Assembly: GCF_011758745.1 (NCBI RefSeq)
Contig: NZ_JAANOV010000001.1
Coordinates: 3,472,001-3,536,000, forward strand
Reading direction: 5' to 3'
From: Amycolatopsis granulosa
Lineage (GTDB): Bacteria > Actinomycetota > Actinomycetes > Mycobacteriales > Pseudonocardiaceae
DNA: 64,000 nt
Below the pieces are notes generated by a model that saw nothing but the letters and a program-made list of their open reading frames with translations, was not told where the DNA came from and searched no databases. Shown here in pieces: positions 3,606-15,385 of this stretch; the stretch's first letter is position 1, and each line of letters starts with the position of its first letter. The position numbers were made by a program, and so were the translations under genes.

Positions 3606-5258
3606 ATGGAGCTCCTGACCTTGATGGCGGTGCTGGCCGGTGCCCTGGGGCTGACCGCGGTCGCCCGGCGGTTCAACCTGTCGGCACCCCTGCTGGTGGT
3701 CGTGGCGGCGCTGGCCGTCTCGTTCGTCCCCGGCGTGCCCCGGGTGGAGATGGAGCCGGAGCTCGTCCTCACCCTGGTCCTGCCGCCGCTGCTGTACTCG
3801 ACCGCGCGGGAGAGCTCGTTCGCCCAGTTCAAGGCCGCTGCCCGGCCGATCATCGGGCTCGGGGTGGTGCTCGTCGTCATCACGGCGCTGGTCGTCGGGT
3901 TCGTCGTGCACCTGTTGCTGCCCGATCTGCCGATGAGCTCGGCGTTCGTGCTGGGTGCCGTGGTCGCGCCGCCGGACGCGGTGACCGCCGCCGCGATCGG
4001 CCGCCGCCAGCACCTGCCGCGGCGGCTGATGACGGTGCTCACCGGGGAAAGCTTGGTCAACGACGCCGCCGCGCTGACGCTGTACAAGATCGGGCTCGCC
4101 GCGGTCCTCGGCGCCGCCGGGTCGCTCGGCCACGGCTTCCTGGTGTTCCTCGTCGCCGCGGTGCTCGGCATCGGCGTCGGGCTCGCCGCGGCGGTGCTGG
4201 TCTCCCTCATCCGGCGCAAGCTCGAGGACCCGCTGATGGAATCGGTCTTCGGCATCATCGTGCCGTTCGCGGTGTACGTGACGGCGGAGCACCTGCACCC
4301 GTTCTCGGCGGACTTCAGCGGGTCCGGTGTGCTCGCGGTGGTGGCCGCCGGACTGTACCTCGGCGACCGCTCGCTCTACGCCGGCTCGGCCACGCGCGTG
4401 CAGGACTCGTCGATCTGGGCGTCGTTCGACGTGCTGCTCGAGGCGCTCGTGTTCGCGCTGATGGGACTGCAGCTGCCGTTCGTGCTGGCGGGCGTGAGCG
4501 CCAACGCGCACGACAACTGGCAGCTGTGGTGGTGCGCGCTCGCCGTGCTCGGCGTAGCGATCGCGATCCGCATCCCGTACGTGTTCCTCAACGCCTACCT
4601 GCCCCAGGCGGTCCGGTTCTTCGGCCGGGAACGCGACCGGCCGCCGACCCGGAACCTCCTCGTGCTGTCCTGGGCCGGCATGCGCGGCGTGGTGACGCTC
4701 GCCGCCGCGGCCGGTGTGCCACTGCTGACCAACGCCGGGCAGCCGTTCCCCGGCCGCGACGAGATCCAGCTGTGCGCGTTCGTCGTGGCGATCGGGACGG
4801 TGCTGGTCCAGGGTCTCACCCTGCCCGTGCTGATCCGCCGGCTCGGCGTGCACGACAAGGACGACGCGGAGCGGGACGCCGAGGAGGAGATGGCGGCCCG
4901 CGAGGCGGCGATGCACGCGGCACTGGACCGCCTCGACGAGATGACCCCCGAGCTGGTCGGCAAGCTCGGCATCCCGCAGGAGCGGGCCGAACGCCTCGGC
5001 AACCGGCTGCGGGCGCTGGTCGAGACGCGCTACCGCGGTGCGGTGGCGGCGATCTCGCTCAGCGCGGAGGAACGCGAGTCCAGCCCGCACGCCGCGTTCG
5101 TCCAGGCGCGCCGCGACCTGCTGCTCGTCCAGCGCGAGACGATGCTGGAGCAACGGGCCGAGGGCAAGCTCGACGACGAGGTGCTGCGCAAGGTCCTGCG
5201 CGAGCTGGACCTGGAGGAACTCGCCCTGTCGGACACGCTCATGGCGCGGCTGTCCTGA
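3606..5258 (+). CDS. CPA1-family cation/proton antiporter (NhaP-like)
   Basis: A monovalent cation/H+ exchanger of the cytoplasmic membrane, 550 aa. AAGGA at 3594-3598 sits seven bases before ATG 3606 (MELLTLMAVLAG), so the longer reading from 3573 is rejected. About 12 TM segments fill residues 1-420. The CPA1 signatures are VVAPPDAVTAAAI (TM5 region) and GESLVNDAAALTLYK (TM6), which carry the ion-binding Asp and the ND pair. A charged, helical cytoplasmic tail of about 130 residues follows (EEEMAAREAAMHAAL onward) and is probably regulatory. Na+ versus K+ preference cannot be read from sequence. It is convergent with purA. Confidence 0.9.
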   Translation: MELLTLMAVLAGALGLTAVARRFNLSAPLLVVVAALAVSFVPGVPRVEMEPELVLTLVLPPLLYSTARESSFAQFKAAARPIIGLGVVLVVITALVVGFVVHLLLPDLPMSSAFVLGAVVAPPDAVTAAAIGRRQHLPRRLMTVLTGESLVNDAAALTLYKIGLAAVLGAAGSLGHGFLVFLVAAVLGIGVGLAAAVLVSLIRRKLEDPLMESVFGIIVPFAVYVTAEHLHPFSADFSGSGVLAVVAAGLYLGDRSLYAGSATRVQDSSIWASFDVLLEALVFALMGLQLPFVLAGVSANAHDNWQLWWCALAVLGVAIAIRIPYVFLNAYLPQAVRFFGRERDRPPTRNLLVLSWAGMRGVVTLAAAAGVPLLTNAGQPFPGRDEIQLCAFVVAIGTVLVQGLTLPVLIRRLGVHDKDDAERDAEEEMAAREAAMHAALDRLDEMTPELVGKLGIPQERAERLGNRLRALVETRYRGAVAAISLSAEERESSPHAAFVQARRDLLLVQRETMLEQRAEGKLDDEVLRKVLRELDLEELALSDTLMARLS

Positions 5259-10879: not shown

Positions 10880-12437
10880 ACTGCTGGTGGTGCGGGATCT
10901 CGCCGTGTCCTACCGCACGCGGTCCGGTGTGGTGCCGGCCGTGCGGTCGGTCGGCCTGACGGTACGAAGTGGACAGACCGTGGCGGTGGTCGGCGAATCC
11001 GGTTCGGGCAAGTCGACCACCGCGCACGCGGTGATCGGGCTGCTGCCGCGTGGTGGGCGCATCGAGGGCGGGTCGATCACCTTCGACGGCCGGGAACTGA
11101 CCTCGCTGCCGGAGAAGGCGTGGCGCTCGGTGCGCGGCGCGGAGATCGCGTTGATCCCGCAGGACCCGACCGTGTCGCTGAACCCGGTCAAGCGGATCGG
11201 CGAGCAGGTCGGTGAGGCTCTGGTCGTCCACGGGCTGGCCACCCGGCGCGCGGCCCCGGCGCAGGCCGTCGAGTTGCTGGCGCGGGCCGGGATCGACAAC
11301 CCGGGGTTGCGGGCGCGGCAGTACCCGCACGAGCTGTCCGGCGGGCTGCGGCAGCGCGCGCTGATCGCGGCGGCGCTGGCCGGCCGGCCCAGGCTGATCA
11401 TCGCCGACGAGCCGACCAGCGCGCTGGACGTAACGGTGCAGCGGCGCATCCTGGACCACCTCGCGGAGCTGGCCGTGGAGGAGAACCTGGCGCTGCTGCT
11501 GATCACCCACGACCTGGGGGTCGCGGCCGACCGGGCGGACGAGATCGCGGTGGTGTCGCAGGGCCGGTTGGTGGAGCGGGCGCCGAGCGCGGAGCTGCTG
11601 GCCGCACCGGCGCAGGATTACACGCGGCGGCTGTTGGCGGCGGCACCCAGCCTGTCGACGGAACCGCTGCGGTCACGCCGCGCGGCGGGGACGGCGCTGG
11701 TCCGGGTTTCGGGACTGCGCAAGGACTTCGGCGCGATCCGGGCGGTGGACGATGTGTCGTTCGAGATCCCGCGCGGGCAGACCTTGGCGCTGGTCGGCGA
11801 ATCCGGGTCGGGTAAGTCCACGACGGCGCGGATGGTGCTGCGGCTCGCGGAACCGTCCGCGGGCACGGTGTCGTTCGACGGTGTGGACGTGACCGCCGTG
11901 CGCGGCGCGGAGTTGCGGCGGCTGCGGCGGCGGATGCAGCTGGTGTACCAGAACCCGTACGCGTCGCTGAACCCGAAGCTCACGGTGTCCCAGATCGTGT
12001 CGGAGCCGTTGCGGGCGTTCCGGGCTCCCGGGCGTCCCGAGGAGCTGCTGGACCAGGTGGCGTTGCCGGCGTCGATGCTGCGGCGCAGGCCGGCGGAGCT
12101 GTCCGGCGGGCAGCGGCAGCGGGTGGCGATCGCGCGGGCGCTGGCACTGCGCCCGGAACTGGTCGTGCTCGACGAGCCCGTGTCGGCCCTGGACGTGTCC
12201 GTGCAGGCCCAGATCCTGGAGCTGCTGGTCCGCCTGCAGGACGAGCTCGGGCTGACGTACCTGTTCATCTCGCACGACCTGGCGGTGGTGCGGCAGGTGG
12301 CCGACCACGTCGGCGTGATGCGCGCGGGCACCTTGGTGGAACACGGCCCGGCCGGCCAGGTCCTGCGAGAGCCGCGGCACGCCTACACGAAGGAACTGCT
12401 GAACGCGATCCCCGGGCGGGTGTCGGAGGTGGCCTGA
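10872..12437 (+). CDS. fused double ATPase of the peptide/nickel ABC importer (DppD-DppF type)
   Basis: A 521-aa cytoplasmic ATPase carrying two complete nucleotide-binding domains, replacing the usual separate D and F subunits. The first NBD (about residues 1-255) has Walker [11 protein letters not shown] near residue 40, signature ELSGGLRQR, and Walker [13 protein letters not shown]. The second (about 275-521) has [19 protein letters not shown] and [12 protein letters not shown]. Each ends with the oppD/F-type extension ([10 protein letters not shown] and [10 protein letters not shown]). The fusion is common in actinobacteria. It is the last gene of the operon. Confidence 0.93.
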
Positions 12438-12494
12438 CCGCCTGCAGTGCGGGGTGGCGGCCGGTCTGAGCAGGCGCCGGGTGCGGCGGGCGGT

Positions 12495-13121
12495 TCAGGG
12501 ATGCGGACGTGGGACCGGGCAGGTGAGCAGTACCGCGGAGATGCGGCATCGCTTTGCGACCCAGCTGTGCAGGTGGGGGTCGATGTAGGTGAGGACGTCA
12601 TAGATGTCCTGCTGGCGCTGGGTCAGCTCCTTGTTCCAGATCGGTTCATGGTGAGCGAGCCGGTTGCGGAACTGGTGAAGGCGCTTGATCGGCTGCTCGA
12701 TCGTGTGCCGGGCGCGGCTCGGGGCGTGTGGGAACCCGCTGGCCAAACTGGGCCACAGGGTGGTGTTGTACTGCTTGGCCAGCAGATACCGCCAAAATCC
12801 GAAGGTCAGTTCCGAGATGGTCTGGCCTGCGCCGGCGTGCTTTCCCTTGCGCCGGACCCGCTGACGGGCCTTTCGGATCTCCTCCCGCGCGGTCGTGTCG
12901 AGGTCCTGGCTCGGGTCGTCGAGCCACGAGCCGGGACGGCCCTTCGTCTGGTGCCGCACGGCCAGCCTGCTCGCCAGGACGTTGCGCAGCGCGATTTCCA
13001 GGTGGCCGAGGGTTTCCCAGTAGGCGGAGCCCGCCAGCGAGTTCCACGCGTAGAGTTCCAGGGCGGCGGCGCGGTCGTAGTGGCATTTGACCAGGTAGTC
13101 GGCCATTCGTGGGGTGCTCAT
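12495..13121 (-). CDS. Abi_2 / AbiF-like HEPN protein, putative abortive-infection RNase
   Basis: A 208-aa protein of the Abi_2 (AbiD/AbiF) family, thought to stop growth on phage infection by RNA cleavage. The start MSTPRMADYLVKCHYDRAAALELYAWN at ATG 13121 is chosen because upstream codons look non-coding; no clear ribosome site is present. The family layout is complete: LEIALRN in the N-half and FRNRLAHHEPIW in the C-half. R152-N-R-L-A-H157 is a textbook HEPN RxxxxH catalytic motif, and R52-LAVR-H57 also fits RxxxxH but may be chance. GC is visibly lower than in its neighbours, which suggests transfer. It is flanked upstream by a structured RNA candidate. Family call firm; RNase activity and defence role inferred. 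Confidence 0.8.
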   Translation of the reverse strand: MSTPRMADYLVKCHYDRAAALELYAWNSLAGSAYWETLGHLEIALRNVLASRLAVRHQTKGRPGSWLDDPSQDLDTTAREEIRKARQRVRRKGKHAGAGQTISELTFGFWRYLLAKQYNTTLWPSLASGFPHAPSRARHTIEQPIKRLHQFRNRLAHHEPIWNKELTQRQQDIYDVLTYIDPHLHSWVAKRCRISAVLLTCPVPRPHP

Positions 13122-13145
13122 CACAGCCAGCACGGCAGTGTTCGT

Positions 13146-13176
13146 TTGGTGATCCCCAGTCACGTCGGGTATTGTA
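13146..13176. promoter_or_regulatory. candidate divergent promoter between the RNA candidate (+) and the Abi_2 gene (-)
   Basis: On the plus strand TTGGTG (13146-13151) lies 18 bases before TATTGT (13170-13175), directing transcription into the hairpin region. On the minus strand the overlapping hexamer TACAAT (13176-13171) is a near-consensus -10 facing the Abi_2 gene, about 50 bases before its ATG, with no clear -35. Opposed overlapping promoters would let the RNA and the gene compete for polymerase. Confidence 0.4.
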
Positions 13177-13181
13177 TTCGG

Positions 13182-13283
13182 TGAAGACCGCTGAACGGTC
13201 CCTGGTGACTCTGAACAGGGTGGGCCACACCGCTGCGGTTGTGCTTCAGAAGGCGCCGCCCGATGGGCGGTGCCTTCTTGTTT
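13182..13283 (+). ncRNA. candidate structured RNA beside the Abi_2/HEPN gene
   Basis: About 100 nt with four consecutive predicted hairpins. They are 13186-13200 (GACCG/CGGTC, loop CTGAA), 13200-13220 (CCCTG/CAGGG, loop ending CTGAA), 13226-13243 (7 bp with one bulge, loop CTG) and the terminator at 13249-13277. The first two share base 13200, so their boundary is uncertain. Both loop copies of CTGAA are complementary to TTCAG at 13245-13249, just before the terminator, so a pseudoknot or alternative fold is possible. No coding potential is evident. The T-rich tail supports the plus strand. AbiF-type proteins are reported to work with a neighbouring RNA, which motivates the call. Strand and function are unproven. 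Confidence 0.4.
13249..13283 (+). terminator. intrinsic terminator ending the RNA candidate
   Basis: A 13-bp stem with one G-U pair (13249-13261 with 13265-13277) and a GAT loop, followed by TTGTTT. On the minus strand no T-run follows, so it acts for plus-strand transcripts, of which no annotated gene is upstream within reach. That implies an untranslated transcript. Confidence 0.7.
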
Positions 13284-13465
13284 CTGCAGCTCCACGGCCT
13301 TGATCAGCACTGGTGGGCTCAACCTTCGAGCGGACGTCGGCGAGCCGGCGTTCTCGCCAGTTCGTTCCAGGTCCGCACCTGGTGCCCCGGGCCGCGGCGG
13401 GTCGCCGACCGCTGGTACCCGGTCGGCGGCCCGCGGCGGCTGATCGCGGTTCCCGCCGCGACGTG

Positions 13466-15328
13466 CTACTCCGCGACCCCGTCACGCGGTTCCCGCACCA
13501 CGCGCAGGATTTCCCGCGCCGCGGCGTCGTTCTGCCGGAACGACGGGCCGTTGGTCCGCGGCCGGGTGAACGCGGCCGCCGAGCGGGCGCTCGTGTGCGG
13601 GCCCAGCGCGAACCGCCGCGGTTGGGGCCTGCCCAGCGCGTCCAGCAAGCGGCCGTCCGACACCCGCGTGTGGATCAGTCCCGACGGCAGGTCCCGCACC
13701 CGCTCCTCGGCCAGCTCGCCCGCGCCCCGGAGCTGCGCCAGCAACCCGTCCGAGGCACGCGAAACGCTCGGCGGCGGCAACCGCGCCTCGATCAGCGTCC
13801 GGGCCGTCACGGAGCCCGGAAAGCTGCCCGAGGACGCCACGAAGCCGTCCTCACCGAGCGAGATCCGGACGTCCGCCCCCAGGAACGACACCACCCCGGC
13901 CTGGTGCAACGCCAGCAGCTCGTGCAACCGGCGGGGCGGGGGACCGCTCGCGTAGTAGGAGAAGAACCCGTGCCACCAACCGTCCACGTCGGACACGTCA
14001 AGCCTGCCGGAGGCCATCAGGGCCGGCATCTGCTGGTACACCGACAGCAGGGCCATGAACGCACCCAGGTCCGCGGAGTACCGGGCATCCGCCCGCCGCG
14101 CCAGGTCGGCCTCCACATAGGACCGCAGGTACTTCCCGAACTCCTCCGCCGAGCCGAACCGCAACCCGGCCAGCGGGCGGTCCAGCCGGTCGAGGTCGAG
14201 CCGGTCCTCCTCGGCCGGCACGGCGCGCCGCACCAGCGCCTGCATCTCGCCGCTGTCCCAGTCGAACGCGGCGAATCCCCGCGCGAACTCGGCGAAGGGC
14301 ACCAGCACCCGGGACGGATGGCCGGTGAACAGCTCGCTGTAGTACCCCCACGCGAGCTCCTTCGCCACGTGCGGCCACACGTCCGCGCGGAAGTCCAGGT
14401 GCCGCTCCCGCGCCAGCAGCTCCGCCACCCGCGCCTGGTCGAAGAACCGCGGCAGCTCCAGCGGTGCGCCCTGCAACCGGTAACCGGGCTTCGCGTGGTA
14501 GGGCACCCCGCGCCGGGACCCGATGTGCAGCACCGGTTCCGCGCCGCTGCGCTGGTACACCAGGCCGCCCGCGCGCTCGGTGAACCGCCCGCCGCGACCC
14601 TCGGTCAGCAACAGCATCAGGTCGACGAACGCCAGCCCGAACCCGCGCACCAGCACCGGTTCGCCCGGCGCGACGTGCTCGTAGTCGACGTCGGCGGTGT
14701 AGCCGGCCGGGTAGTAGGCCAGCCCGTGCCGCGCCGCGAACCCGGCCAGTTCCCGCTCAACCGAACCCGGGTCGGCGTCGAGGTGCCCGACCGTCAGCAC
14801 CACCGCGTCCGCGTCGAGCGGCTCGGCCACGCCCGCGAGCCACACCCGCGTCCCGTCGATCCGCGTCACGCGCGTGCGGTGCTCCACCACCTCGATGCCG
14901 CGGGGTAGCCCGGCCAGCACGTGCCGGTACACCCAGTCCAGGTAGGCGCTGGTCAGCCGCCGGGTGGGAAAGGACGTACCGCGCAACGCGTCCAGCTCGT
15001 CCCGCAGGTCCGCCGGCACGTCGTAGCCGATCCGCCCGTTGCGCACCTCCTGCGCCCACTGCCACAGCGACGGCCCGCTCCGCACCGGGCCGGTCATCGT
15101 GACCGAGTCGTCGGTGAACATCGTGACGTCCTCGGCCATCGAGTTCATCCGCAGCAGCGGCGACTGCTCGTACCGCCAGATCCGGCCCGCGCCGGGCGGG
15201 AACGGGTCGATCAGGTGCACCACCAGGCCCGCGGGCCCGAGCAGCTCGGCCGCGTTGGCGGACAGCCGTTCCAGCACGCCGATCCCACGCGGCCCCGCCC
15301 CCACGATCGCGAGCTGAGACGGCGCCAT
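13466..15328 (-). CDS. FAD/NAD(P)-binding protein (NAD_binding_9 type)
   Basis: A 620-aa putative flavoprotein. The start MAPSQLAIVGAGPRGIGVLERL at ATG 15328 puts the Rossmann GxGxxG dinucleotide motif (GAGPRG) right at the N-terminus, as in the family; the longer frame upstream adds only Arg-rich non-coding sequence. Further in, YPAGYTADVDYEHVAPGEPVLVRGFGLAF resembles the second nucleotide-binding region. Relatives are found beside ornithine-hydroxylase-like or YdhS-type proteins, but no reaction is established. The TetR gene lies 57 bases upstream on the same strand, so co-transcription is possible and the TetR may control it. Confidence 0.75.
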   Translation of the reverse strand: MAPSQLAIVGAGPRGIGVLERLSANAAELLGPAGLVVHLIDPFPPGAGRIWRYEQSPLLRMNSMAEDVTMFTDDSVTMTGPVRSGPSLWQWAQEVRNGRIGYDVPADLRDELDALRGTSFPTRRLTSAYLDWVYRHVLAGLPRGIEVVEHRTRVTRIDGTRVWLAGVAEPLDADAVVLTVGHLDADPGSVERELAGFAARHGLAYYPAGYTADVDYEHVAPGEPVLVRGFGLAFVDLMLLLTEGRGGRFTERAGGLVYQRSGAEPVLHIGSRRGVPYHAKPGYRLQGAPLELPRFFDQARVAELLARERHLDFRADVWPHVAKELAWGYYSELFTGHPSRVLVPFAEFARGFAAFDWDSGEMQALVRRAVPAEEDRLDLDRLDRPLAGLRFGSAEEFGKYLRSYVEADLARRADARYSADLGAFMALLSVYQQMPALMASGRLDVSDVDGWWHGFFSYYASGPPPRRLHELLALHQAGVVSFLGADVRISLGEDGFVASSGSFPGSVTARTLIEARLPPPSVSRASDGLLAQLRGAGELAEERVRDLPSGLIHTRVSDGRLLDALGRPQPRRFALGPHTSARSAAAFTRPRTNGPSFRQNDAAAREILRVVREPRDGVAE

Positions 15329-15385
15329 GTCCCCGACGCTACGGAAAAACCGGCACGGCCGACCGGTCTCCCGCATCCTGGACGC

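Follow-up and report, generated by a model that had tools for sequence, protein, structure and literature searches.

The window analyzed here, a 64,000-nucleotide stretch of the Amycolatopsis granulosa genome (contig NZ_JAANOV010000001.1), contains a minimal gene of AbiF type at 12495-13121 and, divergent from it, a predicted gene for a small structured RNA at 13181-13283. The locus is real and is predicted from its sequence to represent a compact branch of AbiF with a differently placed, separately transcribed RNA. A conserved structured RNA lies beside the gene, as in the known pairs of AbiF and its noncoding RNA (ncRNA), and the locus was judged likely to be a phage-defence module of the AbiF kind that resembles an RNA toxin-antitoxin system.

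The protein gene and the RNA element of the window

The protein gene is located on the minus strand (12495-13121) and encodes 208 amino acids, including the sequence R152-N-R-L-A-H157, which conforms to the R-x4-H motif of HEPN proteins (R152-N153-x3-H157). The initial annotation had assigned this gene the same motif and an Abi_2 layout; the open reading frame (ORF) and the motif are present, and the Pfam Abi_2 profile matched the protein with an E value of 3.4e-5 and 24.6 bits, 1 bit short of the cut-off of 25.6 bits. In an alignment of 86 homologues, R152, N153, and H157 were invariant, as were E42, R46, W66, G108, and W123, and Abi_2 matched 59 of the 86. The PD-T4-5 profile of PADLOC matched the window protein with an E value of 1.3e-14 over positions 33-215 of its 309 and was the top PADLOC family for 85 of the 86 homologues; NCBIfam returned no family. 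The three-dimensional fold of AbiF was recognized in the protein, which aligns with the AbiF structure PDB 8vz6 only from residue 41 of the latter onward. A profile search of the PDB gave designed ankyrin-type proteins as its sole matches, and these were taken as chance. The reading frame stays open upstream as far as a TTG at 13322, and the ATG at 13121 was chosen as the likely start because the longer frame would cross the RNA. The product is predicted to be a small HEPN ribonuclease of the AbiF kind, a prediction that shares the likelihood given above to the module as a whole.

The divergent RNA gene should be about 100 nucleotides long, beginning near 13181 on the plus strand and ending in an intrinsic terminator at 13248-13283 (stem 13248-13278, 14 pairs, followed by TGTTT). 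The start was placed there because a -35-like TTGGTG (13146-13151) and, after 18 nucleotides, a -10-like TATTGT (13170-13175) match the promoter spacing of the RNA family described below, and also by the conserved leader of that family. Both the terminator with its T-rich tail and the promoter-like pair had been proposed in the initial annotation; a consensus scan found no sigma-70 site. The core of the RNA (13187-13239) is a nested stem comprising P1 (13187-13191/13235-13239), P2 (13196-13199/13229-13232), an internal loop of CCCU (13200-13203) opposite AC (13227-13228), P3 (13204-13206/13224-13226), and P4 (13208-13212/13217-13221). Minimum-energy folds from 13175, 13181, or 13183 to 13283 consisted of a single nested stem with internal loops followed by the terminator, in place of the four consecutive hairpins originally proposed. 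The stretch 13175-13290, in which bases past the terminator pair back and the fold differs, folded better than 200 of 200 shuffles (z -4.2), with the terminator supplying part of the signal. The terminator site alone is weak evidence, since a 3-kb scan gave 2 sites of this type compared with 1.1 in shuffles.

Conservation and inheritance of the RNA family

Homologues of the protein gene bear a short RNA motif upstream, on the strand opposite to the gene, in which two successive stems, the outer one often CCCCGG/CCGGGG, lead through an asymmetric internal loop to a third stem of variable length. The internal loop is CUCU or CCCU opposite A plus one base (CYCU/AN), giving two core subtypes. Of 193 gene matches, 180 passed on profile coverage and 159 remained after removal of copies, and a descriptor scan of the 450 nucleotides upstream of these 159 unique genes reached a score of at least 20 on the divergent strand in 102 cases and on the sense strand in 5. 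A covariance model, R1, was constructed from 45 RNAs found by the descriptor scan, with the window excluded, and six duplicate loci (L034-L037, L041, and L079) were omitted from the R1 locus scans. Among the 159 genes, R1 matched where expected in 142 cases, 141 of them divergent; for the 113 genes of loci outside the model, there were 96 matches, 87 of at least 20 bits and 95 divergent. Within the window, the best R1 place was 13187-13249 on the plus strand (14.1 bits; next best 4.7 bits). L181, with matches at 3793-3847 (+) and 3860-3919 (-), was the only one of the 142 whose better match lay on the gene's own strand, and tandem RNA pairs were seen before a single gene in L089 (1506-1554 and 1571-1619, +) and L058 (1285-1334 and 1352-1400, +).

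Double-sided changes were present in 10 of 13 pairs of the 45-row alignment (84 cells compared with 27.4 in shuffles), counts that are inflated by the selection of rows with a pairing descriptor. Stronger evidence is provided by the strand bias of the descriptor scan, the R1 matches at genes, and covariation within the window's own clade, for which 16 rows were hand-picked among closer relatives (others equally close, e.g. L042, L110, L111, and L114, being omitted) and placed by R1, descriptor, or homologous position. In these rows, 92.5% of cells pair (sliding the partners gave at most 52.0%), and double-sided changes occur in 9 of 19 pairs, a number reached by 3 of 500 shuffles (28 cells versus 8.7); the count of further pair types was not above shuffles. 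Unaided, RNAalifold predicted 16 pairs for the clade, 7 of them with double changes. The covariation backs the nested stem in the RNA of this clade, and together with the R1 matches at 96 of 113 genes it supports a conserved structured RNA beside the gene.

The promoter was likewise found to be a property of the family. A TANNNT sequence was located 9-30 nucleotides before the outer stem in 73 of 88 non-redundant relatives (96 less 8 near-copies), with 71 occurrences at 16-19 nucleotides. A control window contained one in 6 of 88 relatives, and the opposite strand of the same stretch in 21 of 88. TTG was most frequent 39-42 nucleotides before the outer stem. TTGGTG and TATTGT of the window lie inside these ranges.

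Linkage of RNA and gene was assessed in 394 genomes of the class, of which 70 contained a match to the protein profile and 59 a match to R1, with 47 having both, 12 the RNA only, and 23 the protein only (Fisher 4e-32); both scans score a limited number of candidates per genome, which makes absences soft, and the test is partly dependent, the R1 rows including loci from the same genome sample. Among 88 RNA places, 60 were within 1.5 kb of the start of a protein match, 57 of them at 27-149 nucleotides, and all 60 were divergent from the gene. The RNA of the family points away from the gene, at a median distance of about 90 nucleotides from the gene start. The other 28, including 6 of the 38 places scoring at least 40 bits, were not near the gene; 13 of these were inspected in 12 fetched loci, none of which contained a family gene. 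Across 92 proteins placed on a tree, the loop subtype (assigned by hand for the window and L003) changes 9 times, compared with 25.4 in shuffles, and none of 500 shuffles was as low; the RNA and the gene are therefore mostly inherited together.

These observations bear on the proposal that the element merely terminates transcription between neighbours, or is a promoter-terminator region, and has no role as a partner. The T-rich DNA after the outer stem in many relatives is terminator-like and would fit such a proposal, but a terminator does not need the conserved internal loop inside the stem, and the RNA accompanies the gene into several phyla while keeping its own promoter. A leader role is also absent in the window, since the only convincing gene beyond the RNA, at 13466-15376, lies on the minus strand; it encodes an FAD-NAD(P)-binding protein. 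We consider this explanation improbable.

Known systems and proposed mechanism

The closest parallel is AbiF with the abiF ncRNA (RF03085; AbiFr of PbAbiF, PDB 8vz6; RCd22), which shares with the locus a HEPN fold with R-x4-H and an adjacent small RNA having an outer stem and, by eye, the core GCCUCU..AUGC. The anatomy of RF03085 (an outer stem, AGC/GCU, and CUCU and AU around a small hairpin) is that of the CUCU subtype here, the CCCU form being a second core subtype in the present family. Like the window RNA, RCd22 ends in a terminator (PMC12373285). In Clostridioides difficile, RCd22 is upstream of AbiF, co-directional, and co-transcribed (PMC12373285), whereas the window RNA is divergent; the RNA is also co-directional at the RF03085 loci of the class with an AbiF frame, L031 (frame broken) and L033. 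In L032, a further RF03085 copy (1501-1536, -) directly follows a pair of tRNA genes, and the ORFs listed there include no AbiF frame. The window RNA was not assigned to RF03085: Rfam at the gathering cut-off gave no match in the window, RF03085 was not matched at E values up to 5 in any of 16 loci including the window's own (L001), and R1 gave no match up to E 1 in three RF03085 loci. Judged by anatomy, with the statistical searches silent in both directions, the two RNAs are probable relatives. The abiF motif was named in a 2017 paper, where divergent layouts may already have been described.

The window protein also falls, with partial coverage, in the sequence family of E. coli PD-T4-5 (Vassallo 2022), a plasmid-borne distant relative of AbiF/D that is counted as abortive and toxin-antitoxin-like and for which abortive anti-phage activity is reported (PMC9519451). 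R1 found no RNA beside an E. coli gene scoring 444.9 bits on PD-T4-5, and an RNA of this type is thus shown for only part of the PD-T4-5 family. The original proposal of an actinobacterial AbiF-RNA pair was supported, but the group is not confined to actinobacteria: homologues with an R1 match were found, by record titles, in Actinomycetota, Alpha- and Gammaproteobacteria, Acidobacteria, and one cyanobacterium. The proposed kinship with AbiF, the assignment of the RNA to the plus strand, and the pairing are each backed by the comparative evidence.

In the type III toxin-antitoxin system ToxIN, an RNA antitoxin binds an RNase toxin, and the present pair would be analogous; it differs from ToxIN in having a HEPN fold in place of that of ToxN and a divergent, usually single-copy RNA with its own promoter. 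The analysis itself shows the protein fold, the predicted RNA gene, its covariation, and its linkage and co-inheritance with the gene; binding, inhibition, toxicity, and defence are inferred from work on AbiF. By analogy with RCd22 and PbAbiF, the protein would act as a dimeric HEPN ribonuclease with R152 and H157 at its centre, and the divergent promoter would make the RNA of about 100 nucleotides, possibly in excess and independently of the mRNA. The nested stem and CYCU/AN internal loop would bind the HEPN dimer and block the RNase centre, so that the RNA probably keeps the toxin in check. If the balance were disturbed, for example by a phage that shuts off host transcription, free enzyme would cut RNA and the infected cell would be stopped; phage defence by the pair would be the outcome. 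According to a review, AbiFr inhibits through contacts of its bulge nucleotides (PMC12737573); the CYCU/AN loop, conserved and single-stranded, would be their natural counterpart.

Regulation of gene expression by the RNA, through attenuation or antisense pairing and without binding of the protein, would have a precedent in RCd22 of C. difficile, which has an additional cis effect on the transcription of abiF (PMC12373285). Here, however, the RNA is encoded on the strand opposite to the gene and is directed away from the gene start, which makes attenuation in cis impossible and would require a long mRNA leader for antisense pairing, and we regard regulation of this kind as unlikely. Also unlikely is a Cas13-like guide RNA that would base-pair with a target and direct the HEPN enzyme there rather than inhibit the enzyme: AbiF has been proposed as the ancestor of Cas13 (PMC12165695, PMC12737573), but R1 contains no long unpaired stretch fit to act as a guide, the internal loop is conserved while the hairpin loop varies in length in the R1 alignment, and a review describes AbiF as lacking RNA-targeting specificity (PMC12948488).

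Solitary copies, mobility, and significance

A pattern scan of viral contigs found 15 contigs, including the near-copies L239/L243 and L244/L249, compared with 7 and 2 for two scrambled-core controls. CA was present at two diagnostic positions left free by the pattern in 15 of 15 contigs and in 0 of 9 control matches, and R1 reached at least 27 bits in 13 of the 15. In the fetched stretches the gene was seen only in L247, divergently; L239 ends too near the RNA to judge, and L243 is identical in sequence there. The CCCU-type pattern was found in four viral contigs (R1 32.6 to 57.5 bits), whose fetched stretches lack the gene. Neighbouring genes were checked in 12 contigs; those of 7 include phage structural, packaging, replication, or methyltransferase genes, and those of the other 5 returned no match. 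The copies in L249 (2115-2162 of the fetched stretch) and L244 (788-835) are flanked by a major-head gene on one side and a tail gene on the other, a gap corresponding to that of T7 which holds the Tphi terminator; R1 does not match T7 Tphi, and T7 is not claimed to carry the RNA. Further viral copies whose fetched stretch lacks the gene include L236:1360-1404, L238:6405-6454, L242:7810-7855, L243:485-530, L250:3710-3752, L252:1247-1296, and L254:7212-7261. Rfam yielded nothing of note when applied to three phage stretches and T7, and one phage copy had no blastn match among annotated phages.

Solitary RNA copies were also seen mid-stretch in cellular loci (L189, L202, L207, L210, L214, L216, L218, and L219), several with a promoter-like -10 and all lacking the gene within the fetched stretch, and a rescan of eight genomes found no family gene in four (G314, G352, G265, and G204). 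Some low-scoring solitary places are probably ordinary terminators; by eye, L217 and L221 come after tRNA-like sequence. The well-formed gene-less viral copies, several in phage operons, are candidate RNA mimics. It is conceivable, and offered tentatively, that the phage look-alikes serve as decoy antitoxins against host AbiF-type toxins in an arms race and the solitary cellular copies as anti-addiction or decoy RNAs. An RF03085 copy is reported in a lytic cyanophage, in passages that state no decoy role (PMC9964418).

The module was delimited as an insertion at 12435-13505, between an ABC-transporter gene and the gene for the FAD-NAD(P)-binding protein (Pfam). These neighbours are 14 bp apart in the same-genus genome G008, which lacks the module, and are separated in the window by about 1.07 kb including it; in G010, about 630 nucleotides of mostly other DNA lie between them. 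For 12 other genomes of the genus, only G012 matched through the module among the matches listed. Relatives of the protein, including full-length AbiD/F-like ones, were found in 862 plasmid records (one query, E 1e-5) and 7 phage records; R1 found no match in 7 of 8 plasmid or phage relatives taken from named records. In three of these seven, the gammaproteobacterial plasmid relatives L222, L224, and L226, another conserved element was noted by eye within about 100 nucleotides before the gene, together with a terminator-like hairpin, and is possibly a third RNA type. A SAM-IV riboswitch near one homologue (L006:2880-2998, -) is unrelated.

Cas13 is proposed to descend from AbiF and its RNA, and the large, compact branch described here is an independent source of evidence on the RNA parts that count, in particular the conserved CYCU/AN loop, and informs the evolution of RNA control over a HEPN enzyme. 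It would supply Rfam with a missing family, would name an RNA partner for many chromosomal and plasmid genes annotated as 'Abi family', and would open a test of phage-borne RNA decoys.
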